Shown here one piece after another: positions 38,834 through 64,000 of a stretch of 64,000 nt of DNA. Source of the DNA: Tangfeifania diversioriginum (GTDB lineage Bacteria; Bacteroidota; Bacteroidia; Bacteroidales; Prolixibacteraceae). The position numbers and the translations under genes were made by a program. The number at the start of each line of letters is the position of its first letter. Within the stretch, counting starts at the first letter, position 1. Below the pieces are notes generated by a model, which worked only from the letters and a program-made list of their open reading frames with translations, was not told where the DNA came from and searched no databases. The stretch spans positions 62,001 through 126,000 of the forward strand of contig NZ_FQZE01000011.1 of NCBI RefSeq assembly GCF_900141875.1, given 5' to 3'.

Positions 38834-39847
38834 ATGGACGAGAAAGAATCAATACTGTTTTTAGGAGATGTGGTCCCACACAAACTATTTAAGTTTATAA
38901 ATCATTATCCAACAGTAATCAATTTGGAATGCCCGATAACAATGGTTGGCAACCCGGTTCCGGGGAAAATAAATCTAAATGCCAGTGAAAATCATTTAAA
39001 CACTATCTTTAATGGTAAATTAATCAGTGTAAGTTTAGGAAATAACCACATTCTGGATTATGGGAAAAAAGGGTTGGAGTCAACTTTAAATGAACTTGAA
39101 AAATATAGGATCAGTTGGTTCGGCTTAAACTTAAAAGCAGAAGATAATTATCAACCCTTAATACTTGAAATTAATCAAAATAAATTTGCTTTTCTATCTG
39201 CAGTATGCCCGTCAACTTCTCCTGTTATTGATATAGAAAATGGCATTCATTTGGATACTCTGGATATAAAAGAATTGATTGACAGTATTATTGAATTAAG
39301 AAAGTCAGTAAACAGAATAGTCATCTATATACATTGGGGGGCGGAAGAATCTTCTTATCCTTTAAAAGAGGAAATTGTAAAAGCCAGGAAATTAATTGAT
39401 GCAGGGGCAGATATAATTATTGGGACCCATGCCCATGCACCTCAGCCGATCGAAAAATATAAAAATGGAATCATCGCATACAATTTAGGAAACTTTATTA
39501 TGCCAGCATTGAAAAATATTCCAACGTATTATGATGAAAGAGGCAATCCTCAATCATCTTATAATAAAAATCTGATGTTATGGAACAGAATATCCTGGGG
39601 AGCATTAATTGATATGAATAGCATGGAATTTAAAGTTAAGAAATACATTTTTATCTTTGACCGGGTTTTTGAATTACCCTTTACCCCGCTCGACAAATAC
39701 ATTCAATTAAGACAAAATCTGGATCATGATAAATATGAACAGATTATACAGAAGCACCTCAAAAAAAGGAAAATTTACAGAAGAATAAGAGACTATATTA
39801 ACAATCCACACATTCCAAATTTAGTAAAAAACATGGTATGGAAGTAG
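38834..39847 (+). CDS. CapA-family metallophosphatase-like protein
   Basis: A 337-residue protein of the CapA (poly-gamma-glutamate capsule) family, with a calcineurin-like fold. Motifs are ILFLGDVVP (metal Asp), NLECPIT, SLGNNHILDYGKKG, IYIHWGAEE and IIGTHAHAPQPIEKYKNGIIAYNLGNF. CapA proteins belong to poly-gamma-glutamate systems and are also found in polysaccharide loci, where their job is not settled. No signal peptide or helix is seen, unlike classical CapA. The last 10 bases overlap the ATP-grasp gene, so the two are coupled. Confidence 0.82.
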   Translation: MDEKESILFLGDVVPHKLFKFINHYPTVINLECPITMVGNPVPGKINLNASENHLNTIFNGKLISVSLGNNHILDYGKKGLESTLNELEKYRISWFGLNLKAEDNYQPLILEINQNKFAFLSAVCPSTSPVIDIENGIHLDTLDIKELIDSIIELRKSVNRIVIYIHWGAEESSYPLKEEIVKARKLIDAGADIIIGTHAHAPQPIEKYKNGIIAYNLGNFIMPALKNIPTYYDERGNPQSSYNKNLMLWNRISWGALIDMNSMEFKVKKYIFIFDRVFELPFTPLDKYIQLRQNLDHDKYEQIIQKHLKKRKIYRRIRDYINNPHIPNLVKNMVWK

Positions 39848-40875
39848 GTCTTCTTTTAAATTCAAATAATCGGTTATGTCCTTACAGTGAGAGATATAAG
39901 GAAATACTGGATGAAAATAATATACATTTTAAACTAATTGATCCTAATTCTTATACATTATTTGATGAACTGCAATCATGTTCGCATTTATTATTTCATC
40001 ATACTCAGGGCGATACAGATATGTTGATTTATGAATCATTATTTTATATTGCACAGAATGTATTTAACATTAAATGCTATCCAAATTTTGAAACTTACTG
40101 GTCATATGAAAACAAAATAAAAGAGTACTATCTGTTAAAAAGTCATGGTTTCCCAATCATTGATTCTCAGGTATTCTGGAATAATAATCACGCTTATAAT
40201 TTTCTGAATGAAACAGAATTTCCAATCATTGCGAAATTGTCAAAAGGAGCAAGTTCAAGCAATGTGGTTATTTTAAATTCTTTTGGCGAAGGGAAAAAAA
40301 TTATTGATCAGGTTTTTAATGATGGCGTTAAGGTAAGAGGCTTACAGAATCGTTCGAATTTAACGTCCATATCCAATGTGGGTTATTTTAATTATGGAAA
40401 AGCAACTTTAAAATCAATTTTATTAAAACTTAATCTGATAAAAGAAAAAATTGAATATCCGGAATGGCAGATACAAAAAGACTCGATTTTGTTTCAGAAA
40501 TATTTGCCAAATAATACTTTTGATACCAGAATAACGATTATTGGGGACAGGGCATTTGCATTCAGAAGATTTGTAAGAGAAAATGATTTCAGAGCCTCTG
40601 GTAGTGGTAAAATTGATGTCAATCCCGATAAGATAGATATCCGCTGTATCGAAATTGCATTCTCTGTTTCAAAAAAGCTTAATTTTAATACGATGGCTTA
40701 TGATTTCATATATGATGAAGAAAAAGAACCATGGATTAATGAAATCAGCTATTGTTTTGTGGATTCAGCTGTTCAAAGTTGTCCCGGCCACTGGGATGAA
40801 AAATTAAACTGGCACAAAGGTCAATGTTGGCCCCAAAAATGTCAACTAGAAGATTTTCTTGAATTAAATATTTAA
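39838..40875 (+). CDS. ATP-grasp ligase
   Basis: A 345-residue RimK-like ATP-grasp enzyme. It has FPIIAKLSKGASSSNVVIL (ATP-binding Lys), IQKDSILFQKYLPNNTFDTRITIIGDRAFAFRRFVRENDFRASGSG, and the closing YDFIYDEEKEPWINEISYCFVDSA with metal-binding Glu and Asn. Such enzymes form amide bonds between a carboxylate and an amine. Its overlap with the CapA-like gene suggests they work on one product, perhaps attaching an amino acid to a uronic acid. That is inference. Confidence 0.78.
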   Translation: MEVGLLLNSNNRLCPYSERYKEILDENNIHFKLIDPNSYTLFDELQSCSHLLFHHTQGDTDMLIYESLFYIAQNVFNIKCYPNFETYWSYENKIKEYYLLKSHGFPIIDSQVFWNNNHAYNFLNETEFPIIAKLSKGASSSNVVILNSFGEGKKIIDQVFNDGVKVRGLQNRSNLTSISNVGYFNYGKATLKSILLKLNLIKEKIEYPEWQIQKDSILFQKYLPNNTFDTRITIIGDRAFAFRRFVRENDFRASGSGKIDVNPDKIDIRCIEIAFSVSKKLNFNTMAYDFIYDEEKEPWINEISYCFVDSAVQSCPGHWDEKLNWHKGQCWPQKCQLEDFLELNI

Positions 40876-47193: not shown

Positions 47194-48051
47194 ATGGATA
47201 AAGTTCTATTTGGCGACAACCAGTTTTTTGCGGTAAATCATGCTTCCGACGAAAAAGCAAGAGCACAGTCGATCCGTTTTAAGGAAGATTCGGCCATTAT
47301 TAATGTAATCGATCAGGCCATAGATTTGGGCATCAATACCTTTATGTGCACTACGCACGACCGTATCGGAAATATATGCGACCATATGCGGGCAAATCCA
47401 TTGAGGTACAAAGATTTTAATATTTATCCCTGTATGCCTTATGCGCACAAATATGCTAATGCTGTTACCGAATTGGGGATCATGGGAACAATCAAACAGT
47501 ATGTCCCGGGAAATGTATTCGGTACCTTTGCCAAAGGAGGTTTTGCTTTTATCAGCAAAGACTTTAAGTCTTTGATGGAATTATTGATAGATGCCGAAAT
47601 GAAAATGTTTAGGGGTATTAAAACCCCTGTAATTTTTATTCAAAATGTGCTTGTCGATTTGATTCTTGGATTAAAAATGTTTGAAGTATTTAAGGAATAT
47701 GATGCATACATCCGAAAAAAGTACAATGCCGAACCGGGCTACATTACTATGAATATGCCTGCACTGCTCGATGCCTTGAACTCTGTTGGTATAGAAAATC
47801 CTATAATATGTAGTTCCATCAACAAAATTGGGTTCAGGATGAGTGGCGGCATTGAAGTTTACGAAAAATACCTAAAAGAAAAAGAATTCAGGCCTGTGGC
47901 TATGCAAGTGTTGGCTGCCGGAGCGTTACGACCTGAACAAGCCACTGAATACCTGGGCAGATTTCCGAAAATAGAATCTGTATTATTTGGTGCTTCCTCA
48001 AAAAGCCATATTGAGGAAACAAAAAGTTTAATTGAAACTCATTGTAAATAA
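47194..48051 (+). CDS. TIM-barrel protein resembling aldo/keto reductases
   Basis: A 285-residue protein starting KVLFGDNQFFAVNHASDEKA. Segments such as IDQAIDLGINTFMCTTHDRIG and the end IESVLFGASSKSHIEETKSLI resemble the first barrel strand and the final helix of aldo/keto reductases. The usual catalytic Tyr of that superfamily is not evident, and no NADP-binding motif stands out. It starts 2 bp after the Gfo/Idh/MocA gene, so the two probably act on the same sugar. Function is not known. Confidence 0.55.
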   Translation: MDKVLFGDNQFFAVNHASDEKARAQSIRFKEDSAIINVIDQAIDLGINTFMCTTHDRIGNICDHMRANPLRYKDFNIYPCMPYAHKYANAVTELGIMGTIKQYVPGNVFGTFAKGGFAFISKDFKSLMELLIDAEMKMFRGIKTPVIFIQNVLVDLILGLKMFEVFKEYDAYIRKKYNAEPGYITMNMPALLDALNSVGIENPIICSSINKIGFRMSGGIEVYEKYLKEKEFRPVAMQVLAAGALRPEQATEYLGRFPKIESVLFGASSKSHIEETKSLIETHCK

Positions 48052-51180: not shown

Positions 51181-52053
51181 ATGAAATTCAATTACTTAAT
51201 ACTTGGAGGTGCAATTTTACTGGTGGCCATCTTATTATTCAGGTTTTTTAACAAGAAGGAATCAGGTAATGAGTATAAAATCCTCTTTCTCCATCACAGC
51301 ACCGGAAATATCATTAAAAATGCCGGCTCCCCACCAATTCGTTACATTGGGAAGCTGATAAATCAAAAATCGTTTGTGGCAAAGTGGCTGGAAGATTATA
51401 ACGAAAAGCATGGAACCAACTATGTTTTTGAGGAACAATTTTTCCCCAAAAAAAAGCCTTATGGCTGGAATAATTACCCGTATGATTATTACAACATCTG
51501 GGTAAAGAATGCCGGTGAAGCACCTTATATGAATGAACCCACCCTTGAGATACTCACAAAAAAATACAACATGATTGTATTCAAACATTGTTTCCCGGTT
51601 AGTGATATCGATGAGGATATCAATCAACCTGATATCAATTCCCCGGAAAAAAGGATCGAGAACTACAAACTTCAGTATAACGCTCTGAAACAAAAAATGC
51701 TGGAGTTTCCCGATACTAAATTCCTGGTATGGACGGGGGCCGCACGGGTCGAAAAAAGCATAACTAAGGAAAGAGCGCAAAGGGCGAAATCTTTTTTTGA
51801 CTGGGTTCGAAAAGAGTGGGATACCCCAGACGATAACATCTATATCTGGGATTTTTATGATATTGAAACTGAAGGTGATCTTTATTTAAAACCGGAATAT
51901 GCAAGTAGCCCGACAGATTCCCATCCAAATAAGATATTAGCCGAAAAAGCTGCTCCTCTTTTGTGTCAACGGATTGTTGAGATAACCAAGTTGAGCAAAC
52001 AGGATTCTTCAGAAGTTGACATGTTGCATGAAAACGTTGCGAAAGTAAAGTAA
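51181..52053 (+). CDS. Membrane-anchored SGNH-hydrolase-like protein
   Basis: A 290-residue protein with one N-terminal helix (about residues 5-23), then a soluble domain. YKILFLHHSTGN carries a possible catalytic Ser40 in an HHST context, a variant of SGNH block I. SSPTDSHPNK near residue 245 carries the Asp/Ser-x-His of block V. This fits an extracytoplasmic esterase or deacetylase acting on the polymer. Other SGNH blocks are not clear. It starts 31 bp after the acyltransferase gene, which would suit an acetyl cycle. Confidence 0.6.
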   Translation: MKFNYLILGGAILLVAILLFRFFNKKESGNEYKILFLHHSTGNIIKNAGSPPIRYIGKLINQKSFVAKWLEDYNEKHGTNYVFEEQFFPKKKPYGWNNYPYDYYNIWVKNAGEAPYMNEPTLEILTKKYNMIVFKHCFPVSDIDEDINQPDINSPEKRIENYKLQYNALKQKMLEFPDTKFLVWTGAARVEKSITKERAQRAKSFFDWVRKEWDTPDDNIYIWDFYDIETEGDLYLKPEYASSPTDSHPNKILAEKAAPLLCQRIVEITKLSKQDSSEVDMLHENVAKVK

Positions 52054-52096: not shown

Positions 52097-54844
52097 ATGA
52101 AAGAAAAAGCTATATCTATTTTTGTTTTTAGCCTGTTTTTTATCTTCCCAATTCAGAATTGTTTTTCGGGCCATAGCAACGAAGAAATTGATCAGAATAT
52201 TTCACAGGATTTTCCCGATGAAATCATATTTTACACCACCGGCAGCTCTTTTTCACCTGTGCTGACCTTGCGTGCCGATGCCGAGGTTACCTGGACATGG
52301 GCTGACAGCACCACGAGTAATTCGCCTGCGCCAGAGAAAGATTACGGGTCAAATGCGTTAAGGGCTAACAGGGTAAAGGTTACTCCCTGGAGTGCAGTGC
52401 GGCGTATAAACATAGGATACGATGCAGGAGATGATGGCACTCCTGATATAGAACTTGTTGAAGATCAGAGAGTTTATTCGGTCGAGAATCTCCACCTGGT
52501 TGCTCCTTATTTAAAAGAATGGTGTTCCTCTTACAACGATATTACTGAATTGGACTTCAGTAACTTTACCGAACTGGAAACGATAGAATGCTTCCTTTCA
52601 ACTACGCTGGAGGAAGTTAATCTTACCAATACAAATAAATTAAAGCGAGCATGCTTTGAATTTAATGGCTTAAAAAATCTTGACTTGAGCGATTCTCCTC
52701 TCTTGCAGGATTTACGTGCGGCTGCCAATAGCTATACTACAATCACATTGCCTAATGAGACTGACAGTTTATGGCATTTATGTGTTCATCATAATGATTT
52801 CTTCAATCAGCACTTTTTTAATGATATGAGCCGATACCCCAATATTGCGGATTTGTTAATAGAATATACCAACCAGCAAGGGGAATTAGTCATTCAAAAA
52901 TCAAATCCAAACAGGAATATTGAGATTCGTGCATTTGGGAATGAATATACTTCTGTCGATTTTCGGGGAGCTCTTAAAAATGAATATCTTTGGGGAATTG
53001 TGGATATGGATCATAACGAGCTTAGCGAAGTAAATATTGAAGGATGCGTTCAGATTAAACAACTGGACCTGAGTTACAATAAACTTACTTCTGCAGGAAT
53101 CGATGATGTATTAAGGCAAATGGATGAGCTTGGTACTGATCCCCAAAACGGCACTATTGATTTACGCAACAATCAGCCGCCAACCTATACAGGGTGGGTT
53201 CATAAAAACAATCTGGAAAACAAAGGATGGACCGTATCTACGGATTTATATGTGCCCGTGGGAAGCATTTCAATAACCGGAGGGAATACAATATCAACCG
53301 ATAACAGCACCTTGCAATTAGAGGCAGAAGTCATGCCCGCCGATGCAACAAACAAAACAGTAGCCTGGTCGGTCAGCAATGAAACAGGAAGGGCGACCAT
53401 AAACGCTTCGGGGCTACTAACAGCCGAAAAGGACGGGACAGTCACAGTTGTCGCCACTGCTGTTGACGGCTCCGGAGTCACCGGAGACCTTCAGGTAACC
53501 ATCTCGAACCAGGTTATTCCCGTGGAAAGCATTTCAATAACCGGAGGGAATACAATATCAACCGATAACGGCACCTTGCAATTAGAGGCAGAGGTCATTC
53601 CCGCCGATGCAACAAACAAAACAGTAACCTGGTCGGTCAGCAATGAAACAGGAAGGGCGACCATAAACGCTTCGGGGCTACTAACAGCTGAAAAGGACGG
53701 GACAGTCACAGTTGTCGCCACTGCTGTTGACGGCTCCGGAGTCACCGGAGACCTTCAAGTAACCATCTCGAACCAGGTTATTCCCGTAGAAAGCATTTCA
53801 ATAACCGGAGGGAATACAATATCAACCGATAACGGCACATTGCAATTAGAGGCAGAAGTCATGCCCGCCGATGCAACAAACAAAACAGTAGCCTGGTCGG
53901 TCAGCAATGAAACAGGAAGGGCGACCATAAACGCTTCGGGGCAGCTAACTGCCGAAAAGGACGGGACAGTCACAGTTGTTGCCACTGCTGCTGACGGCTC
54001 CGGAGTCACCGGAGACCTTCAGGTAACCATCTCGAACCAGGTTATTCACGTGGAAAGCATTTCAATAATCGGAGGGAATACAATATCAACCGATAACGGC
54101 ACCTTGCAATTAGAGGCAGAGGTCATTCCCGCCGATGCAACAAACAAAACAGTAGCCTGGTCGGTCAGCAATGAAACAGGAAGTGCGACCATAAACGCTT
54201 CGGGGCAGCTAACTGCCGAAAAGGACGGGACAGTCACAGCTGTTGCCACTGCTGCTGACGGCTCCGGAGTCACCGGGGAACTGCAAATTACCATTTCGAA
54301 TCAAAAGATTCTTGTTGAAAGTATTGAGATAATCAGTACTATTTCAGGTGATACAATTAGAGGTATTGGGAGACAGGTACAATTTGATGTAATTTTAACC
54401 CCCTCTGACGCAACAAATCAAAACATTGAGTGGTCGGTTGAAAATATTACAGGGGAGGCCATTATAGACAGTACGGGATTATTGACAACACAATATCCGG
54501 GGGTGGTTAAAGTTATTGCAAAGGCAACTGATGAATCAAATCATACAAGTACGAAGGAATATGTTATTGTAATCCCTCTTGGTATAGAACTCAATTCATC
54601 CAAGTTAGGTGTTAAAATTTTCCCAAATCCTACGGAAGGAGAGATGAAAATTCAAATTGAGGGTATTTCTGATCAGGGAGCTGATATTGAAATTTGGGAT
54701 CCCTCAGGTCGATTACTTATGAAGAGAAAAGTTTTTGAAAAACTTTCATACTTTTCATTGGAAAGTTTTGGAGGCAATAATTTCCTCATAATTATTAGAA
54801 CTAATAATGAACTAATAGTTCACAAAGTCATTAAAAACCGCTGA
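52097..54844 (+). CDS. T9SS cargo protein with LRR-like region and Ig-like (BIG2) repeats
   Basis: A 915-residue secreted protein. Residues 1-24 form a signal peptide. About 30-385 is a beta-rich region with leucine-rich-repeat-like units (ITELDFSNFTELETIECFLS, LKNLDLSDSPLLQDLRA, IKQLDLSYNKL). About 387-738 holds four almost identical 88-residue bacterial Ig-like group 2 repeats (ISITGGNTISTDNGTLQLEA). A fifth, diverged one follows (to about 830). Residues 838-915 are a T9SS type A sorting domain (GVKIFPNPTEGEMKIQI). It should be exported by the type IX system and anchored on or released from the surface, probably as an adhesin or matrix protein. The next gene is a paralogue. Confidence 0.85.
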   Translation: MKEKAISIFVFSLFFIFPIQNCFSGHSNEEIDQNISQDFPDEIIFYTTGSSFSPVLTLRADAEVTWTWADSTTSNSPAPEKDYGSNALRANRVKVTPWSAVRRINIGYDAGDDGTPDIELVEDQRVYSVENLHLVAPYLKEWCSSYNDITELDFSNFTELETIECFLSTTLEEVNLTNTNKLKRACFEFNGLKNLDLSDSPLLQDLRAAANSYTTITLPNETDSLWHLCVHHNDFFNQHFFNDMSRYPNIADLLIEYTNQQGELVIQKSNPNRNIEIRAFGNEYTSVDFRGALKNEYLWGIVDMDHNELSEVNIEGCVQIKQLDLSYNKLTSAGIDDVLRQMDELGTDPQNGTIDLRNNQPPTYTGWVHKNNLENKGWTVSTDLYVPVGSISITGGNTISTDNSTLQLEAEVMPADATNKTVAWSVSNETGRATINASGLLTAEKDGTVTVVATAVDGSGVTGDLQVTISNQVIPVESISITGGNTISTDNGTLQLEAEVIPADATNKTVTWSVSNETGRATINASGLLTAEKDGTVTVVATAVDGSGVTGDLQVTISNQVIPVESISITGGNTISTDNGTLQLEAEVMPADATNKTVAWSVSNETGRATINASGQLTAEKDGTVTVVATAADGSGVTGDLQVTISNQVIHVESISIIGGNTISTDNGTLQLEAEVIPADATNKTVAWSVSNETGSATINASGQLTAEKDGTVTAVATAADGSGVTGELQITISNQKILVESIEIISTISGDTIRGIGRQVQFDVILTPSDATNQNIEWSVENITGEAIIDSTGLLTTQYPGVVKVIAKATDESNHTSTKEYVIVIPLGIELNSSKLGVKIFPNPTEGEMKIQIEGISDQGADIEIWDPSGRLLMKRKVFEKLSYFSLESFGGNNFLIIIRTNNELIVHKVIKNR
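53255..54310 (+). repeat. Four tandem 264-bp coding repeats
   Basis: Four head-to-tail copies begin at 53255, 53519, 53783 and 54047, each encoding one 88-residue Ig-like domain; they differ at only a few percent of bases. Copies 1 and 3 share GAAGTCATGCCC and copies 2 and 4 share GAGGTCATTCCC, while copies 1-2 and 3-4 share other variants downstream. This mosaic points to unequal crossing-over or gene conversion. Confidence 0.95.
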
Positions 54845-54942
54845 TGATAGAGTGTCATTTGGCTATTAGTTTTTTTGATCTCTAAAAGAAAAAACAACAG
54901 TTTTTCAGTTTTCAATTTATTTTACATACTAAACCATTACAG

Positions 54943-56895
54943 ATGAAAGAAAAAGCAATAACTATTTTTATTTCCAGCCTGTTTTTTATTTTTCCAATCC
55001 AGGATTGTTTTTCGGGTCTTAACAACGAAGAAACAAACCAGAATATCGCACAGGATTTTTCCGATGAAATCATTTTTTACACTACTGGCAGTTCTTTTTC
55101 ACCTGTGCTAACCTTGCAAGCCGACGCAGAGGTTACCTGGACATGGGCTGATGGCACCACGAGTAATTCGCCTGCACCAACGAAAGATTACGAGTCAAAT
55201 GCGTTAAGAGCCAACAGGCTAAAGGTTACTCCCTGGAGTGCAGTGCGGCGTATAAACATAGGATACGATGCAGGAGATGATGGATCCCCGGATATAGAAC
55301 TTGTTGAAGATCAAAAAGTTTCTTCGGTCGAGAACCTCCACCTGGTTGCTCCTTATTTAAAAGAATGGTGTTCTTCCTACAACGATATTACTGAATTGGA
55401 TTTCAGTAACTTCGCAGAACTGGAAACGATAGAATGCTTCCTTTCGACTACGCTGGAAGAAGTTAATCTTACCAATACAAATAAATTAAAGCGAGCATGC
55501 TTTGATTTTAACAACTTACAAACTCTTGATTTGAGCGATTCGCCTCACTTACAGGATTTACGTGCATCTGACAATAGCTTTACTGCTGTTACATTACCTG
55601 ATAAGACGGATAGTTTGTGGCATTTATGTATTCATCATATCGATTTCTCCAATCAGCATTTTTTTAATGATATGAGTGGATACCCCAATATTGCGGAACT
55701 GTTAATAGACAATAACAACCAGCAGGGAGAATTAGTTATACCAAAATCAAATCCAAACAGGCATATTGAGATACGTGCATATGGGAATGAATATACTTCT
55801 GTTGATTTTAGGGGAGCTTTTAAAAATGAATATCTTTGGGGAATTGTGGATTTGGACCATAATGAACTCAGCGAAGTAAATATTGCAGGTTGCGTTCAGA
55901 TTAAAGAATTAGACTTAAGTTTTAATAAGCTTACTTCTGCAGGAATCGATGATGTATTGAGGCAAATGGATGAGCTTGGTACTGATCCCCAAAACGGCAC
56001 CATTGATTTACGCAATAACCAACCGCCAACCGAAGAAGGATGGATTTATAAAACCAATCTTGAAAATAAAGGATGGACTGTTTACACGGATGTGTATGTG
56101 CCGGTGAAAAGTATTTCGATTAGCGGGGGCAACACAATTTCAACTAATAACGGAATTCTGCAATTACAGGCAGAAGTCCTGCCCGCTAATGCTACAACTA
56201 AAACGGTAAACTGGTCAGTTATTAATGAAACAGGAAGCGCTACCATAAACTCTTCCGGGTTGCTCACTGCTGAAAAAGAAGGGATTGTCCGGGTAATCGC
56301 AAGTGCTACCGACAGCTCAGGAGTGACAGGTGAACTACAAATAACCATTAAGAACCAGACGATTCTGGTTAAGAAACTGGAGATAATCAGCAATATTCCG
56401 GGTGATACAATTAGAGGTATTGGAAAACAGGTACAATTTGATGTAATCCTAACTCCCTCAGACGCAACAAATCAAAAGACGGATTGGTTTGTCGAAAATA
56501 TTACAGGAGAGGCCATTATAGACAGCACGGGATTATTGACAACACAAAACCCAGGTATGGTTAAAGTTATTGCAATGGCTACCGATGAATCAAAATATAC
56601 TAGTACGAAGGAGTATTTCATTGCTATCCCGGTTGGCGTAAAACTCCGTTCATCCCAGCCAGGTGTTAAAGTCTTTCCAAATCCGACGGACGGAGAGATA
56701 AAAATTCAAATTGATCGTATTTCTGACCAGGGAGCCTCCATTGAAATTCGGGATTTCTCAGGTCGGTTACTTATGAAAAAGGAAGTGTTTGATAAACTTT
56801 CAAACTTATCGTTAGTGAATTTTGAAGGCAATAATTTCCTCATTATTGTTGATGCAAATAATGAATTAACGGTTCAAAAAGTCATTAAAAAATAG
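54943..56895 (+). CDS. T9SS cargo protein, paralogue with one conserved Ig-like repeat
   Basis: A 650-residue paralogue of the preceding protein, nearly the same over the signal peptide and the LRR-like region (about residues 1-385). It has only one BIG2 repeat of the common type, a diverged one (to about 565), and a T9SS type A sorting domain (GVKVFPNPTDGEIKIQI, residues 573-650). The pair clearly arose by tandem duplication. The length difference is due to repeat number. It lies 98 bp after the first gene, with a similar leader (CATTACAGATGAAAGAAAAAGC). Confidence 0.85.
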   Translation: MKEKAITIFISSLFFIFPIQDCFSGLNNEETNQNIAQDFSDEIIFYTTGSSFSPVLTLQADAEVTWTWADGTTSNSPAPTKDYESNALRANRLKVTPWSAVRRINIGYDAGDDGSPDIELVEDQKVSSVENLHLVAPYLKEWCSSYNDITELDFSNFAELETIECFLSTTLEEVNLTNTNKLKRACFDFNNLQTLDLSDSPHLQDLRASDNSFTAVTLPDKTDSLWHLCIHHIDFSNQHFFNDMSGYPNIAELLIDNNNQQGELVIPKSNPNRHIEIRAYGNEYTSVDFRGAFKNEYLWGIVDLDHNELSEVNIAGCVQIKELDLSFNKLTSAGIDDVLRQMDELGTDPQNGTIDLRNNQPPTEEGWIYKTNLENKGWTVYTDVYVPVKSISISGGNTISTNNGILQLQAEVLPANATTKTVNWSVINETGSATINSSGLLTAEKEGIVRVIASATDSSGVTGELQITIKNQTILVKKLEIISNIPGDTIRGIGKQVQFDVILTPSDATNQKTDWFVENITGEAIIDSTGLLTTQNPGMVKVIAMATDESKYTSTKEYFIAIPVGVKLRSSQPGVKVFPNPTDGEIKIQIDRISDQGASIEIRDFSGRLLMKKEVFDKLSNLSLVNFEGNNFLIIVDANNELTVQKVIKK

Positions 56896-57002: not shown

Positions 57003-57989
57003 ATGAACCTGAAAAACAATAAATCATTTTCACAAGAAATTTTGAAAATTGAAAATGTAGAAGAAGAAGTAAACAGGATATCAAAAAGGTTAAAAAAAGA
57101 TATCACTGAAATTTTAAAACGCAAAGGGGCAGTAGTTGGAATAAGTGGAGGCGTTGACTCTTCGTTAACCCTTGCCCTGGCAGTAAAAGCACTTGGTTCC
57201 GAAAATGTAATTGGTATCATGTTGCCTGAAAAAGACTCCAGTGGTGAAAGCATCGCTTTTGCACAAAAATTGGCTGAAAAATTCAATGTTCAAACCATTG
57301 AAGAAAACATTACAGGTGCCTTAAAAGGATTTGGTTGTTATAAAAGAAGAGACGAGGCGGTGGTTCGTGTATTTCCGGAATACAATCCAGATACCTACAA
57401 AATGAAAATTGGAATTGATAAACGTAGTTTAAATCAATCGTTGCCACCGGTATTTACAATTACAATAGTTAATAGTAATGGTACAGAAAAACGGAAGATC
57501 TTACCCATAAAGGAGTACCTTCAGATAGTTGCCGCATCGAATTTTAAACAACGCAGCCGGATGTCTATGCTATACTATCATGCAGAGAAGTTACATTATG
57601 CCGTAGTTGGAACCCCAAACAAACACGAGGTAGAACAAGGATTTTTTGTAAAATATGGTGATGGAGGAGCGGACATAATGCCTATTGCGCATTTATATAA
57701 ATCGCAGGTTTATCAATTAGCGGAGCATGTGGGTGTCCCAAATGAGATTATCAAGCGCACACCAACAACAGACACCTACTCTGCCGAACAAACCCAGGAG
57801 GAGTTTTTCTTCCAGCTGCCTCATCAGGAAATGGATTTAATTTGGTATGGCATGGAAAACAAAATATCCCCTGATAAAGTTGGAGAAGCTTTGGGAAAAT
57901 CGGCTGAATATATAGAAATAGCGTATAAAAGTCTTGAAAGGAAAAAAAGGACAACTGAATATTTAAGGATGCAACCTCTAAAATATTAG
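57003..57989 (+). CDS. NadE-like NAD+ synthase family protein
   Basis: A 328-residue PP-loop ATP pyrophosphatase of the NAD+ synthase family, without a glutaminase domain. The ATP loop is GISGGVDSS (residues 46-54). Later NadE motifs are VVGTPNKHEVEQGFFVKYGDGGADIMPIAHLYKSQVYQLAEHVGVP and RTPTTDTYSAEQT. It has an insert around residues 115-170 (GCYKRRDEAVVRVFPEYN...) not usual in NadE. Its place in a polysaccharide locus, 4 bp before an adenylate-forming enzyme, suggests an amide-forming role other than routine NAD synthesis. That is inference. Confidence 0.75.
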   Translation: MNLKNNKSFSQEILKIENVEEEVNRISKRLKKDITEILKRKGAVVGISGGVDSSLTLALAVKALGSENVIGIMLPEKDSSGESIAFAQKLAEKFNVQTIEENITGALKGFGCYKRRDEAVVRVFPEYNPDTYKMKIGIDKRSLNQSLPPVFTITIVNSNGTEKRKILPIKEYLQIVAASNFKQRSRMSMLYYHAEKLHYAVVGTPNKHEVEQGFFVKYGDGGADIMPIAHLYKSQVYQLAEHVGVPNEIIKRTPTTDTYSAEQTQEEFFFQLPHQEMDLIWYGMENKISPDKVGEALGKSAEYIEIAYKSLERKKRTTEYLRMQPLKY

Positions 57990-57993
57990 GAAA

Positions 57994-59466
57994 ATGAACA
58001 GTATTGACTACCTTTTCGAAAATACATACGCGTTGGAGAAGGATTTTATTTTAGGTCCTCAGGAAAAGTGTTCCTATGCAACCCTATTCGAAAGTTCATA
58101 TAGATTAGCAGCATATTTGCAAAAATATGTAGGGCAAAATAATAACATTATTCTCATAGCTCAAAATAGCCTGTTTTTTGTTATAGCCTATCTGGCCATT
58201 ATCAAGTCAGGAAATACTTGTATCCCCTTAAATCCAACGGTCGAACAAAAGAATTTTGATTTTATTCGAGAAAAGACAAAATGTTCTTTGGGGTTTATTG
58301 CGAAAAAGGGAGTTCAAAAACTAAATGTAAAAATCGATATAATTTCGGAAGAGAATCTTGAACTAATAATAAATGGCAAAACAACAGAACGTTGTGAGAT
58401 AGAAAAAGATTTTGATGAAAACCGTGTGGCCGAAATAATATTTACCTCAGGCTCCACATCCACTCCCAAAGGCGTTATATTAACGCATAAAAATATAATT
58501 GCCAATACAAATTCAATTATTCAATATCTGGAATTAGAAGAGAATGATATAATGCTGGTTGTTTTACCATTCTTTTATTGCTACGGCCTTTCACTGTTGC
58601 ATACCCACCTGCGGGTTGGAGGCCAATTGGTTTTAAATAATAACTTTATCTTCCTGGCATCAACAATAAATAATATTAACAAATATAATTGTACAGGTTT
58701 TGCCGGTGTTCCAAGTCATTTTCAAATTTTGTTAAGAAAAAACAATCTTTTCAAAAACACAGAATTCCCTTCGCTTCGATATGTAACCCAGGCTGGTGGC
58801 AAATTGCATAATACTTTTATCAAAGAATTTATCCATTCTTTTCCAAATATTCAGTTTTATACCATGTATGGTCAGACTGAAGCTACCGCCCGTTTATCGT
58901 ACCTGCCTCCAGCGAAACTAAAAGAGAAATTAGGTTCAATTGGCAAAGGAATTCCCGGAGTCGAATTAAGAGTAGTAAACTCTAATGGAGACATAGTATC
59001 TAAGGGAGAAGTGGGTGAAATTATAGCAAAGGGGGATAATGTTATGTCGGGGTATTTTGAAGATGCAACAGAAACAAATACAACTCTTCGAAACGGTTGG
59101 CTATACACCGGTGACCTGGCTAAAATTGACGACGAGGGTTATATATATCTTGTCTCAAGAAAAAAGGAAATTATTAAAATTGGAGGCAACAGGCTAAGTC
59201 CCAAAGAAGTAGAAGAGGTTGTCAATATGATTCCGGGCGTTATAGATACTACTATAACGGCTGTAAAGGATGATACTTTTACGCATGCTTTAAAGGCAAC
59301 AATAATAGTATCAGATGGCGCTATGGATTTAACTGAAGAAGTCGTGAAGCAGCACTGCGCCAATAATCTATCCAATTTTAAAATACCTTCTGTAATTCAG
59401 TTTGAAACTGAAATGAAATTTAGTGCAACGGGAAAAAAAATCAATGAAAATGAACTGTCAAATTAG
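57994..59466 (+). CDS. Class I adenylate-forming enzyme (AMP-binding)
   Basis: A 490-residue ANL-superfamily enzyme. Core motifs: IIFTSGSTSTPKGVILTHKN (A3), YGQTEATARLSYLPP (A5), GWLYTGDLAKIDDEGYIYLVSRKKEIIKIGGNRLSPKEVEE (A7-A8) and the C-terminal Lys in FSATGKKINENELSN (A10). It activates a carboxylate as an acyl-adenylate; the substrate is unknown. An acyl carrier protein gene follows by 23 bp, so the acyl group may be loaded on it. Confidence 0.9.
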   Translation: MNSIDYLFENTYALEKDFILGPQEKCSYATLFESSYRLAAYLQKYVGQNNNIILIAQNSLFFVIAYLAIIKSGNTCIPLNPTVEQKNFDFIREKTKCSLGFIAKKGVQKLNVKIDIISEENLELIINGKTTERCEIEKDFDENRVAEIIFTSGSTSTPKGVILTHKNIIANTNSIIQYLELEENDIMLVVLPFFYCYGLSLLHTHLRVGGQLVLNNNFIFLASTINNINKYNCTGFAGVPSHFQILLRKNNLFKNTEFPSLRYVTQAGGKLHNTFIKEFIHSFPNIQFYTMYGQTEATARLSYLPPAKLKEKLGSIGKGIPGVELRVVNSNGDIVSKGEVGEIIAKGDNVMSGYFEDATETNTTLRNGWLYTGDLAKIDDEGYIYLVSRKKEIIKIGGNRLSPKEVEEVVNMIPGVIDTTITAVKDDTFTHALKATIIVSDGAMDLTEEVVKQHCANNLSNFKIPSVIQFETEMKFSATGKKINENELSN

Positions 59467-59489
59467 CAACTTATTAAAAAAACAAAATT

Positions 59490-59744
59490 ATGGAAAAATT
59501 ACTTCAAATACAGGAAAAGATAAGAGCGTTTATCGTGAAGGCTTCTTATGCTGAAGATGGAAAAATCGATAATGACACCTTGATTTTTGAACAAGGAGTT
59601 ATGGATTCGATGGGTTTTATGTCGATTATTGGATTTATAGAAGAAGAATTTTCAGTTACACCTTCAGGTGGAGAACTAACAGAAGAAAATTTTGAATCGA
59701 TAGATGCAATTTCAAATTTTGTACAAAGAAAACTTCAGTCATAA
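59490..59744 (+). CDS. Acyl carrier protein
   Basis: An 84-residue phosphopantetheine-binding protein. The attachment Ser40 is in VMDSMGF (usual DSL/DSM motif), inside the helix II context FEQGVMDSMGFMSIIGFIEEEF. It is acidic, as ACPs are. It sits between two adenylate-forming enzymes and likely carries the acyl or aminoacyl group they activate. The stop codon lies inside the AAAG target duplication of the element at 59747. Confidence 0.88.
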   Translation: MEKLLQIQEKIRAFIVKASYAEDGKIDNDTLIFEQGVMDSMGFMSIIGFIEEEFSVTPSGGELTEENFESIDAISNFVQRKLQS

Positions 59745-59746
59745 AG

Positions 59747-59896
59747 CCTGAACTATTCATAAATTTTAAAAATATGAATAAAGTTCAGGTTAATCCCGAC
59801 TTAGATGAAGTTGAACTTTTAAAAAAAAGTTTTACTGAATCTTAGTCGTCCCGATAGTCATCGGGAGAGATAGGGATTATTTGTGAATAATCCGGG
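59747..59896. mobile_element. MITE copy 2
   Basis: A 150-bp element in direct orientation to, and the same as, that at 26589-26736 apart from two extra A in one homopolymer run. It is flanked by a duplication AAAG (59743-59746 and 59897-59900), different from copy 1, which shows independent insertion. It begins two bases after the ACP stop codon and separates the ACP gene from the second adenylate-forming gene. Confidence 0.85.
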
Positions 59897-59948
59897 AAAG
59901 CGTTTCACTTCATAATCTGTTTGCAACTTTCATTAAAAATATTGAAAC

Positions 59949-61520
59949 ATGTTTTGTAAACCCCAACGCTTGTTGGGAGAAGCTTTGGAGTTTTCGGCAA
60001 GGAAACATCCGGATAAAACGGTGGTAATTTATAGGGGAAAAACCTATAACTACCAGTCGTTGGAAAAGTCCGCCGGCAATTTAGCTTTTTATCTTGTAAA
60101 AGAGGGGATAAAAAAAGGAGACCGTGTGGCAATATTTTTGAATAATTGCTGGCAAAGCGCGGTTTCCGTTTATGGAATCACACTTGCAGGAGGTGTTTTT
60201 CTTGTAATAAATCCAAACACAAAAGCTGAAAAGCTAAATTATATATTGAAGGATTGCAGCGCAAAAATGGTTATTTCTGAAAGTCAGCTTTTGGGTGAGC
60301 TTTCAGTTGCGCTAAATGAATTAGAGTCTGTGGAGCAGGTTATTATTACAGGTGAAATTCATGCTGAATTAAATAATGGTAAAGCGTATAATAATTTTGA
60401 ACAAATTATTCAAACAAATGATCACGAAGCTAATTTGCCCCGTATCATCCCAAATGATTTGGCAGCCTTAATTTACACTTCAGGCAGCACTGGATTTCCA
60501 AAGGGAGTGATGATGACACACCAGGCAATGGTCTTTACTTCATGGAGCCTTGTGGAGTATCTTCGGTTAACCGAGGCAGACCGTATAATGTTGGTATTAC
60601 CATTAGCATTTGACTACGGACTTTACCAATTAATTATGGCTGTTACAATAGGGGGAACTTTAATTGTTGATAACTCTTTTAGTTTTCCTCCTGAAGTATT
60701 TAAACAAGTTGAGATGTATAAACCAACTGTTTTCCCTGGTGTCCCCTCAATTTATGCTTTGATGATTTCGATGCATAAGAAAACCGGAATCACTTTTGAA
60801 AGCATCAAAAAAATAACAAATACCGCGGCAGTCCTTCCTGGAGAATTTATTGTTGATTTAAAAAATATATTTCCTAATTCACTTATATTCAAAATGTATG
60901 GGCTCACTGAATGCAAAAGAGTTTGTTATCTGGAACCTGAGCTAATTGATGTGAAAACCAGTTCTGTGGGGAAAGCTATTCCCGGAACAGAAGTTTTGCT
61001 TTTATCTGCAGATGGTAACCCGGTTCTTCCGAACGAGCCCGGGATATTGTATGTCAGGGGGCCGCACGTAATGTCCGGGTACTGGAATAATGAAGAGTTG
61101 AGTAAGCAAATGTTGAAACCGGGGCCTGTTCCTGGTGAGAGAATGTTGTGTGCGCAGGACTTATTTAAAATGGATGAGGAAGGTTTCCTGTACTTTCTGG
61201 GAAGAAGCGATGATATTATTAAAACCATGGGAGAAAAAGTTAGTCCGGTTGAAGTGGAAAATGTGATATATAAAATTGAAGGGGTAAAAGAAGTTGCAGT
61301 ATTAGGTGCTGCTGATCCAGTACTGGGTGAATCCGTAATTGCATTTGTAACAACACACAACAATGAGCTATTTAATGAAAAGGAGATTCGAAAAGTATGT
61401 TCGTCAAAACTTGAACCGTTTATGGTTCCCCATAAAATTATTTTAGTAGAAGAAATGCCCAAGAACAGTAATGGTAAAATAGATAAAGCGGAGCTAAAAA
61501 AAAGACTTTTAGTTCATTAA
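59949..61520 (+). CDS. Class I adenylate-forming enzyme (acyl-CoA/acyl-ACP ligase type)
   Basis: A 523-residue ANL enzyme. Motifs: LIYTSGSTGFPKGVMMTHQAM (A3), YGLTECKRVCYLEP (A5), the adenylate-binding Asp in MLCAQDLFKMDEEGFLYFLGRSDDIIKTMGEKVSPVEVEN, and the C-terminal Lys in PKNSNGKIDKAELKKR. It is more like a typical acyl ligase than the gene at 57994. It may activate a second acid or load the ACP. The next gene starts 1 bp after its stop codon. Confidence 0.9.
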   Translation: MFCKPQRLLGEALEFSARKHPDKTVVIYRGKTYNYQSLEKSAGNLAFYLVKEGIKKGDRVAIFLNNCWQSAVSVYGITLAGGVFLVINPNTKAEKLNYILKDCSAKMVISESQLLGELSVALNELESVEQVIITGEIHAELNNGKAYNNFEQIIQTNDHEANLPRIIPNDLAALIYTSGSTGFPKGVMMTHQAMVFTSWSLVEYLRLTEADRIMLVLPLAFDYGLYQLIMAVTIGGTLIVDNSFSFPPEVFKQVEMYKPTVFPGVPSIYALMISMHKKTGITFESIKKITNTAAVLPGEFIVDLKNIFPNSLIFKMYGLTECKRVCYLEPELIDVKTSSVGKAIPGTEVLLLSADGNPVLPNEPGILYVRGPHVMSGYWNNEELSKQMLKPGPVPGERMLCAQDLFKMDEEGFLYFLGRSDDIIKTMGEKVSPVEVENVIYKIEGVKEVAVLGAADPVLGESVIAFVTTHNNELFNEKEIRKVCSSKLEPFMVPHKIILVEEMPKNSNGKIDKAELKKRLLVH

Positions 61521-61521
61521 A

Positions 61522-62415
61522 ATGGAGGAATTGTTCATTAAAATCAGTCGGGAATTACGGCATAGCCTTATTTTTCTAAAGGATAAACCTGAAGAAAACA
61601 TTGATTCAACAATAAGGGCATTGTGGCACAAAGCATATGGGAATTCTGTTTCTGCTGAAAAAGCAGTGCATCTCCCACTTCCTCAACTGTCAGTAAATCA
61701 GGAGAATATATTGCAGCAACTGGTCCAACAACGTATGAGAGGGATTCCGCTTGCTCATCTGACTGGTCGCCAAAACTTTATGGGCATTGAATTTAAATGT
61801 GATCCCCGGGCGCTAATCCCCAGAAAAGAAACTGAAATTTTAGGGCGAAAATCACATGAGATTTGCCTAAAACTGTCAAAAGAAAAATCGGTTATTGCTA
61901 TCTTCGATGTCTGTTGCGGATCGGGGAACCTTGGGTTGGCACTCGCCAGTAAACATCCAAATGTAAAAGTATATTTATCGGATCTTTCTCCTGGGGCAGT
62001 TGAACTGACAAAAGAGAATATTGATTTTTTAAAATTAGGGCATAAAGCAACAGCTAAACAAAGTGATTTGTTTGCAGGTTTTGACTCAGCGAAATATTGG
62101 GGCCAAATCGATTTGATTGTATGTAATCCGCCCTATATTTCATCATCAAAAGTTCCTAAAATGAATCCTGAAATTGCATCTCACGAACCTGCTTTGGCTT
62201 TTGATGGTGGAATGATGGGAATTAAACTAATTCAAAAATTAATTAGAGAATCACCAAAATTTCTTTCTGAAAATGGGTGGTTAATTTTCGAAGTTGGTGT
62301 TGGGCAAGGCTCCTTTATCCTTCAAATTTGTGAGAAATCAGGAGACTGGGAATTTGTTACCTCTGCAAAAGATACCTCAGGAAATATAAGGGTTATAGCT
62401 GCCTGCTGTAAATAA
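61522..62415 (+). CDS. PrmC/HemK-like N5-glutamine-type methyltransferase
   Basis: A 297-residue SAM-dependent methyltransferase. It has the HemK-like N-terminal helical part with PLAHLTGRQNFMGIEFKCDPRALIPRKETEIL, a SAM loop IFDVCCGSGNLGLALA, and the NPPY motif (VCNPPYISSS) that binds a planar amide. It ends in a HemK-like C-terminus. NPPY enzymes methylate amide nitrogen, as PrmC does on release factors. It is set between adenylate-forming and AsnB-like genes, so it may be a dedicated amide methyltransferase, not the housekeeping PrmC. Confidence 0.75.
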   Translation: MEELFIKISRELRHSLIFLKDKPEENIDSTIRALWHKAYGNSVSAEKAVHLPLPQLSVNQENILQQLVQQRMRGIPLAHLTGRQNFMGIEFKCDPRALIPRKETEILGRKSHEICLKLSKEKSVIAIFDVCCGSGNLGLALASKHPNVKVYLSDLSPGAVELTKENIDFLKLGHKATAKQSDLFAGFDSAKYWGQIDLIVCNPPYISSSKVPKMNPEIASHEPALAFDGGMMGIKLIQKLIRESPKFLSENGWLIFEVGVGQGSFILQICEKSGDWEFVTSAKDTSGNIRVIAACCK

Positions 62416-62470
62416 AAACACCCATTTCTCTACCGCCATATTTAAAATATAAATAAAACAACCAGATACT

Positions 62471-64000
62471 ATGTGTGGAATCGCCGGAATCTACAATTAT
62501 CAATCGTCAAAAGAGCCATCAACGGAAGGGATTGTAAAAAATATGCTTTCGCTGATTAAACATCGGGGACCCGACGAGAGTGGTATTTTGCAGGATTCAA
62601 ATGTGGGAATGGGCAGTGTTCGGTTAAGTATTATAGATCTTACCTCCGGCCAACAGCCTATGTCGGATCAATCGGGCAGATACTGGATCGTTTATAATGG
62701 AGAAATATTTAACTATACTGAATTAAGGTCAGAATTAATAACAAAAGGTGTTCGGTTTAAAACGACGAGCGATACCGAGGTAGTGGTACAAATGTATGCC
62801 ACTTATGGAGCAGATTGTTTAAAGTACTTTAATGGTCAGTTTGCATTTTGTATTTGGGACAGAAATAAAAAAGAATTGTTCCTGGCGCGCGATCGGGTTG
62901 GTATCCGCCCGCTTTTTTACTGGCACCAAAACAATTCCTTTGCCTTTTGTTCTGAAATAAAAGGACTGCTTTCACTGGAACATGTAGAAAGATCTTTGGA
63001 TGAGGAAAGTCTTTCTCAAATCTTTACTTACTGGACAACTCTAACACCCAAAACTCCTTTTAAAGGTATTTTTGAATTACAGCCCGGACATTACATGCAC
63101 GTGAGTTCAAGAGGAATCCAAATCAATAAGTATTGGAGCCTGGATTACACCTCCACAAAAGAACCAATTGTCAAGAATTTGTCGGACTCGATTGAAGAAT
63201 TAGACAATTTACTCGACGATGCAGTAAAAATAAGATTAAAAGCTGATGTTCCGGTTGGTGCATATTTAAGTGGCGGACTCGATTCAAGTGTTACAACTTC
63301 TTATATTAAAAAAATTGAACCAAACGTTTTAAATACATTTTCAATAGGATTTTCTGAAAAAGCTTATGATGAATCAGGTTATCAAAGTGAAGCGGCAAAT
63401 TTTTTTAATACAAATCACATCGCTTTTTCCTGTACTTCAGAAGAATTGGCCGGAAGTTTTGCCCAAACAATTTGGCACACTGAATTTCCAATTTTGAGAA
63501 CTTCCCCTATCCCTATGTTCTTGTTATCAAAAAAGGTGCGTGAGAACAATATTAAAGTTGTAATAACCGGCGAAGGCGCAGATGAATTTTTTGGCGGATA
63601 TAATATCTTTAAAGAAACAAAAATCAGAAGGTTTTGGGCCTCGCAGCCCAATTCCAAAATCCGCCCGAAATTACTGACAAAACTTTATCCTTATATTCCA
63701 CTGGTAAAAGATGCACCGGAAATTTCATTAAAAATGTTTTTTGGTTACAAATTAAGCGAAACTGAAAATCCGGCGTATTCTCACTTGCTACGTTGGAATA
63801 ATACAAGCCGGTTGAAATCTTTTTTTTCTGATGATATTATCTCTTCGCAGAACAGCAACAGTTCGCCTGGTGCATTAAAAGCACTCCCTGACGGTTTCGC
63901 CCGGTGGAGCGGACTCGCCAAGGCTCAGTACCTTGAAGCAACTATTTTTATGTCCGGGTATCTGTTATCCTCCCAGGGCGATCGAATGGCGATGGGGAAT
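62471..64000 (+). CDS. Asparagine synthase-like glutamine amidotransferase, partial
   Basis: The first 510 codons of an AsnB-family protein; the right end is cut by the window. The N-terminal Cys2 (MCGIAGIYNY) is the class II glutaminase nucleophile, with HRGPDESG and YNGEIFNYTELR following. The synthetase domain has the PP-loop YLSGGLDSSV (about residue 266) and ITGEGADEFFGGY. In polysaccharide loci such proteins (for example WbpS) make the amide of a uronic acid. The WbpP/WbpO pair upstream would supply GalNAcA as the acceptor. Housekeeping asparagine synthase cannot be excluded. Confidence 0.85.
   Translation, partial: MCGIAGIYNYQSSKEPSTEGIVKNMLSLIKHRGPDESGILQDSNVGMGSVRLSIIDLTSGQQPMSDQSGRYWIVYNGEIFNYTELRSELITKGVRFKTTSDTEVVVQMYATYGADCLKYFNGQFAFCIWDRNKKELFLARDRVGIRPLFYWHQNNSFAFCSEIKGLLSLEHVERSLDEESLSQIFTYWTTLTPKTPFKGIFELQPGHYMHVSSRGIQINKYWSLDYTSTKEPIVKNLSDSIEELDNLLDDAVKIRLKADVPVGAYLSGGLDSSVTTSYIKKIEPNVLNTFSIGFSEKAYDESGYQSEAANFFNTNHIAFSCTSEELAGSFAQTIWHTEFPILRTSPIPMFLLSKKVRENNIKVVITGEGADEFFGGYNIFKETKIRRFWASQPNSKIRPKLLTKLYPYIPLVKDAPEISLKMFFGYKLSETENPAYSHLLRWNNTSRLKSFFSDDIISSQNSNSSPGALKALPDGFARWSGLAKAQYLEATIFMSGYLLSSQGDRMAMGN

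Follow-up and report, generated by a model that had tools for sequence, protein, structure and literature searches.

The described systems closest to the genes considered here include the DltABCD system, which mediates the D-alanylation of teichoic acids, and the exopolysaccharide genes associated with exosortase A (XrtA/PEP-CTERM). The former pairs a stand-alone adenylating ligase with a small carrier protein, and the latter include a ligase (TIGR03098) and an amidotransferase (TIGR03108) from families that belong to exopolysaccharide loci. Here, we describe a row of six genes in a 64,000-nucleotide stretch of the Tangfeifania diversioriginum genome (the window; positions 62001-126000 of contig C41 in a genome of 4.78 Mb). 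This row exemplifies a biosynthetic cassette that is widespread but patchy in its distribution, with a core of four genes encoding a NadE-like enzyme, an AsnB-type enzyme, an acyl carrier protein (ACP) and an adenylate-forming ligase. The genes of the row, and one accessory gene upstream of it, are as follows:

57003-57989, plus strand: NadE-like PP-loop amide synthetase, core gene (NF002048)
57994-59466, plus strand: adenylate-forming ligase of the lig1 clade (ligase 1), core gene in most loci (AMP-binding)
59490-59744, plus strand: dedicated acyl carrier protein, core gene (PP-binding)
59949-61520, plus strand: adenylate-forming ligase of the lig2 clade (ligase 2; AMP-binding family)
61522-62415, plus strand: PrmC-like protein and putative amide N-methyltransferase, encoded in some loci only and linked to lig2 (TIGR03534)
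62471-64000, plus strand: AsnB-type glutamine amidotransferase/amide synthetase, core gene, 5′ part only in the window (TIGR01536)
51181-52053, plus strand: SGNH-fold membrane-anchored protein or lipoprotein of family f8, accessory to the wider module (homology and fold)

A sequence-only reading of this DNA had listed six consecutive plus-strand genes, and all six open reading frames are found at these positions with their family assignments upheld. They are separated by gaps of 4, 23, 204, 1 and 55 bases, and scans for promoters and terminators gave no signal above chance level. The AsnB gene, which closes the row and has large surface proteins downstream, overruns the end of the window; its complete form (locus L023, 5572-7554) encodes 660 amino acids.

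A scan of genome contigs found 48 NadE-like loci, to which further loci were added from sampled genomes. Counts of genes near the module, where given out of 52, refer to a non-redundant set of loci that extend 6 kb or more to each side of the NadE-like gene. The gene row is more than a chance arrangement, since an AsnB gene is found near 50 of the 52 NadE-like genes, whereas chance would place one near about 0.8% of random points. A ligase lies near 49 and a recognisable ACP near 45. Across 395 genomes, the NadE-like gene is present in 13 and, by reverse search, AsnB of this type also in 13, with 12 in common (Fisher p=6.6e-21, an optimistic value because the genomes are related and not fully independent). 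Co-occurrence of the core families was seen across 64 loci in total, several of which derive from metagenome assemblies. The four core genes recur in shuffled order in Bacteroidota, in neighbouring phyla and on alphaproteobacterial megaplasmids; because gene order varies, the linkage does not merely reflect one frozen operon. Even among members of the window's bacterial family the module occurs patchily, which fits horizontal transfer. Cassettes are located on rhizobial megaplasmids, as a lone operon in Sinorhizobium meliloti, among glycosyltransferase and flippase genes in Shinella, and beside transposition genes in Nitratireductor, where the plasmid-borne cassette (L087, 3301-10428) directly adjoins genes of the Mu/TniB/TniQ type. 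One locus labelled Methanosarcina (L065) falls within Bacteroidota in the ligase tree and is probably contamination. Methanosarcina acetivorans, which served as a control, also gave a signal.

The proposal that the six genes act as one amidation/acylation module therefore stands in part: its families do co-occur widely, as a co-inherited module, but not as a fixed six-gene unit. The exact set with both ligases has no second case among the loci surveyed, and the PrmC-like gene is optional, so that a fixed six-gene operon was rejected. The gene combination was not described in the open literature searched.

Comparison with the Dlt and XrtA systems reveals both likeness and difference. The module does not reach the Dlt cut-offs, with 178 against 560 bits for lig1 (DltA) and 25.7 against 68 bits for the ACP (DltC). 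Many related loci resemble DltABCD in carrying MBOAT and SGNH proteins that could putatively move a group onto a cell-surface polymer; in the window, the SGNH gene lies 5 kb upstream of the row and no MBOAT gene accompanies it, while MBOAT genes are found near nine of the 52 loci. Conversely, Dlt lacks the two amide-forming enzymes and the PrmC-like enzyme present in the window. As for XrtA, TIGR03098 is the best NCBIfam match of ligase 2, and AsnB strongly matches TIGR03108, yet both remain under the cut-offs (462 against 592 bits for ligase 2; 358 for the AsnB fragment in the window and 445 for the S. meliloti protein against 817 bits). In contrast to XrtA loci, the partner that recurs throughout these loci is a NadE-like gene, and other XrtA parts did not turn up in the family scans made.

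Automatic annotation names the genes NAD(+) synthase, PrmC and AsnB, and three housekeeping genes, for NAD synthase, a release-factor methyltransferase and asparagine synthetase, could in principle stand side by side by chance. This explanation fails because a separate canonical NadE is encoded in all 13 genomes tested, the window genome (550 amino acids) and 12 others, and because the window genome also has a separate PrmC and a separate AsnB. Its second PrmC, on contig C57, scores 269.5 bits against TIGR03534, compared with 212.8 (cut-off 199.1) for the PrmC-like protein of the row, which is 25% identical to that PrmC and 47-63% identical to module copies elsewhere. The AsnB of the row likewise shares 32% identity with the second AsnB of this genome and about 41-77% with module copies. 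The sequence-only reading had conceded that it would fall if these NadE, PrmC and AsnB genes were each the genome's only housekeeping copy, and this is not so. With co-occurrence of the module families conserved as well, a housekeeping explanation was ruled out and retains only a negligible probability. The NadE-like and PrmC-like proteins are paralogues separate from the housekeeping enzymes.

The NadE-like protein matches its family firmly (NF002048, 445 bits; cut-off 313). Its predicted model (mean pLDDT, the predicted local distance difference test, of 87) has the fold of NadE (Z 29.3 to 2e18) and of Francisella nicotinamide mononucleotide synthetase (3fiu; Z 29.0), giving an overall match of Z 29, and the residues of the ATP site are shared with NadE (SGGxDS, RxR, GTxNxxE, GD and K233). 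Unlike both of these enzymes, the family has an additional stretch at about residues 111-170 and, in place of a canonical P2-loop of the GQTDExELG type, a near-invariant TDTYSxEQTQEEF. The Francisella enzyme demonstrates that the NadE fold is able to serve a different acceptor. A retained ATP site combined with a family-specific stretch and P2-loop would fit a new acceptor here, too, although it is no proof of one.

For the PrmC-like protein, each of the eight module copies inspected retains the NPPY motif, and formation of an N-methyl amide through this motif is plausible on sequence grounds. Its gene occurs in 12 loci, all with lig2, and is absent from all 52 loci that have lig1 (p=5e-8, optimistic given shared ancestry). 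The full-length AsnB exceeds its family cut-off (TIGR01536, 511 against 267 bits) and, with the N-terminus MCGIAG, has both the N-terminal cysteine glutaminase and the Asn_synthase domain. Its closest solved relative is an AsnB-type hydroxyamidotransferase (7ylz, 187 bits), which, judging by its name, presumably acts on a small-molecule carboxylate, but differs in substrate and pathway. In several relatives of the module, L026 (14392-15777), L135, L137 and L139, AsnB is preceded by a SnoaL-like protein together with another PrmC-like protein that is more divergent (about 42%).

The ligases form two fully supported clades, lig1 and lig2. Ligase 1 of the window (AMP-binding, 232.7 bits) is sister to that of L133, from the same family, and ligase 2 is sister to that of another Prolixibacteraceae locus, L026; the window thus unites two forms of the cassette. 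Their pocket motifs are LPFFYCYGLSLL for ligase 1 and LPLAFDYGLYQL, with aspartate, for ligase 2. At the pocket position equated by eye with the amino-group-binding aspartate of nonribosomal peptide synthetases (NRPS) and DltA, lig1 has cysteine whereas lig2 mostly has aspartate, and the closest PDB chains to lig2 are NRPS adenylation domains. The ACP matches PP-binding in Pfam and carries the phosphopantetheine site DSMG, conserved as DS(M/T)G in most loci.

Biochemical data exist for a related pair of proteins. In S. meliloti, the ligase SMb20650 is cotranscribed with the ACP SMb20651 and acylates it in vivo in Escherichia coli, and it does not substitute for FadD (PMC7232532). On pSymB of S. 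meliloti ml45 we find a free-standing asnB-acp-ligase-nadE operon. Only one of the two ACP genes on this replicon lies beside such a ligase, and it is the one in this operon; we therefore take SMb20650 and SMb20651 to be the same genes, which probably belong to a homologous operon. This operon differs from the window row in having neither a PrmC-like gene nor a lig1 ligase. A GNAT-like homologue is encoded about 10 kb from it (L085, 23444-24553, minus strand).

Potential transferases accompany the cassette according to lineage: SGNH and MBOAT proteins in Bacteroidota, and a GNAT-like protein of 370 amino acids in rhizobia and two other genomes. The protein at 51181-52053 shares as much as 56% identity with family f8, members of which are encoded in L031, L041, L045, L052, L059, L060, L069, L143 and L150-L152, among other module loci. 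Its AlphaFold model adopts the SGNH fold, matching a hydrolase at Z 13.7 and also polysaccharide O-acetylesterases and OatA; with an invariant serine (HHSTG) and histidine (SHP), it is a probable polysaccharide O-acyltransferase or esterase. In the same-family relative L133 (11351-12080), the f8 gene is apparently split into three fragments. The GNAT-like protein receives no name from Pfam or NCBIfam, and its best PDB match is an N-myristoyltransferase (E 0.0017).

From these components a pathway can be proposed, in which the cassette would assemble on its ACP an acyl or aminoacyl group that bears an amide and is destined for a surface glycan; we regard this as the best reading, though one with even odds of being right or wrong. 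A ligase would adenylate a small acid, which for lig2 may be an amino acid, and load it onto the ACP; having two ligases, the window might charge its one ACP with two acids. With ATP and ammonia, AsnB and the NadE-like enzyme would convert a carboxylate of the ACP-borne unit, or of its precursor, to a carboxamide. In loci that have it, the PrmC-like enzyme may then methylate the nitrogen of this amide, just as PrmC methylates glutamine. Finally, a transferase would shift the group from the ACP to the surface glycan, with the SGNH protein of the window presumably acting outside the cytoplasm. A fuller version is offered tentatively: in a widespread and previously undescribed pathway based on a carrier protein, a NAD synthetase turned to a new use would make the carboxamide together with AsnB, and a similarly re-purposed PrmC would N-methylate it, yielding an N-methylcarboxamide acyl or aminoacyl group on a surface glycan.

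A surface glycan as the destination is suggested by the surroundings of the cassette. Glycan genes are found near at least 21 of the 52 loci, Wza, Wzc or sugar transferases near 19, and SGNH or MBOAT proteins near 17. The glycan-gene searches used window proteins as queries and were narrow, so that one Shinella locus (L086) scored negative despite its annotated glycosyltransferases. The main rival is a free small molecule: the cassette could make a diffusible product, or modify a lipid or protein, with its proximity to polysaccharide genes in Bacteroidota being secondary. We consider this on the whole unlikely, albeit serious. It would account for the S. meliloti operon standing free, for the Nitratireductor copy lying beside transposition genes without glycan genes, and for a protein acyltransferase being the nearest solved relative of the GNAT-like partner, but the glycan, SGNH and MBOAT neighbours speak against it, and neither peptide synthetases nor regulators are prominent among the recurrent neighbour families.

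Several points weigh against the proposed pathway. By the same narrow search, 31 of the 52 loci lack the glycan genes sought, which also favours the rival, and the S. meliloti operon is not in a polysaccharide locus. No MBOAT or GNAT-like acyltransferase was found in the window locus, the genome's MBOAT matches being on other contigs. The assignment of SMb20650 and SMb20651 to the asnB operon rests on gene order, not locus tags. The substrate, product and acceptor are all putative, and the pathway does not account for the presence of two amide-forming enzymes.

The sequence-only reading had envisaged decoration of a uronic acid, and a specific form of this idea is that AsnB, the NadE-like enzyme or both amidate a uronic acid carboxyl, such as that of UDP-N-acetylgalactosaminuronic acid (UDP-GalNAcA), while an acyl chain is attached by means of the ligases and ACP. 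The window locus encodes a WbpP/TviC-like epimerase and a TviB-like dehydrogenase, which by sequence are consistent with UDP-GalNAcA, and the AsnB-like proteins WbpS and WbtH are tied to uronamides in O-antigens. However, a UDP-sugar dehydrogenase lies near only one of the 52 modules, no such gene accompanies the cassette in the S. meliloti, Shinella and Nitratireductor loci that were read, and the four S. meliloti genes lie outside any polysaccharide locus. The near-constant ACP and ligase would also be left unaccounted for. A uronic-acid link was thus ruled out as the general role, and uronamide formation is improbable as an explanation of the cassette.

The database names of these proteins (NAD synthase, asparagine synthase, release-factor methyltransferase) hide a conserved multi-phylum cassette. 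If the proposed pathway holds true, two enzymes of core metabolism would have been recruited for decorating molecules, giving a new kind of bacterial surface substituent, and the orphan S. meliloti ACP SMb20651 would gain a testable pathway.

Other features of the window lie outside the cassette itself. Between the SGNH gene and the module, positions 52097-56895 encode two neighbouring and much alike large surface proteins of 915 and 650 amino acids, the first with five Big_2 repeats, which apparently arose by tandem duplication. Within the polysaccharide locus, a PGA_cap (CapA-like) protein is followed by a weak RimK-type ATP-grasp match (38834-40875). A protein of 285 amino acids with no significant Pfam or NCBIfam match is encoded at 47194-48051, where its gene is flanked by those for a Gfo/Idh/MocA oxidoreductase and for the WbpP-like epimerase.

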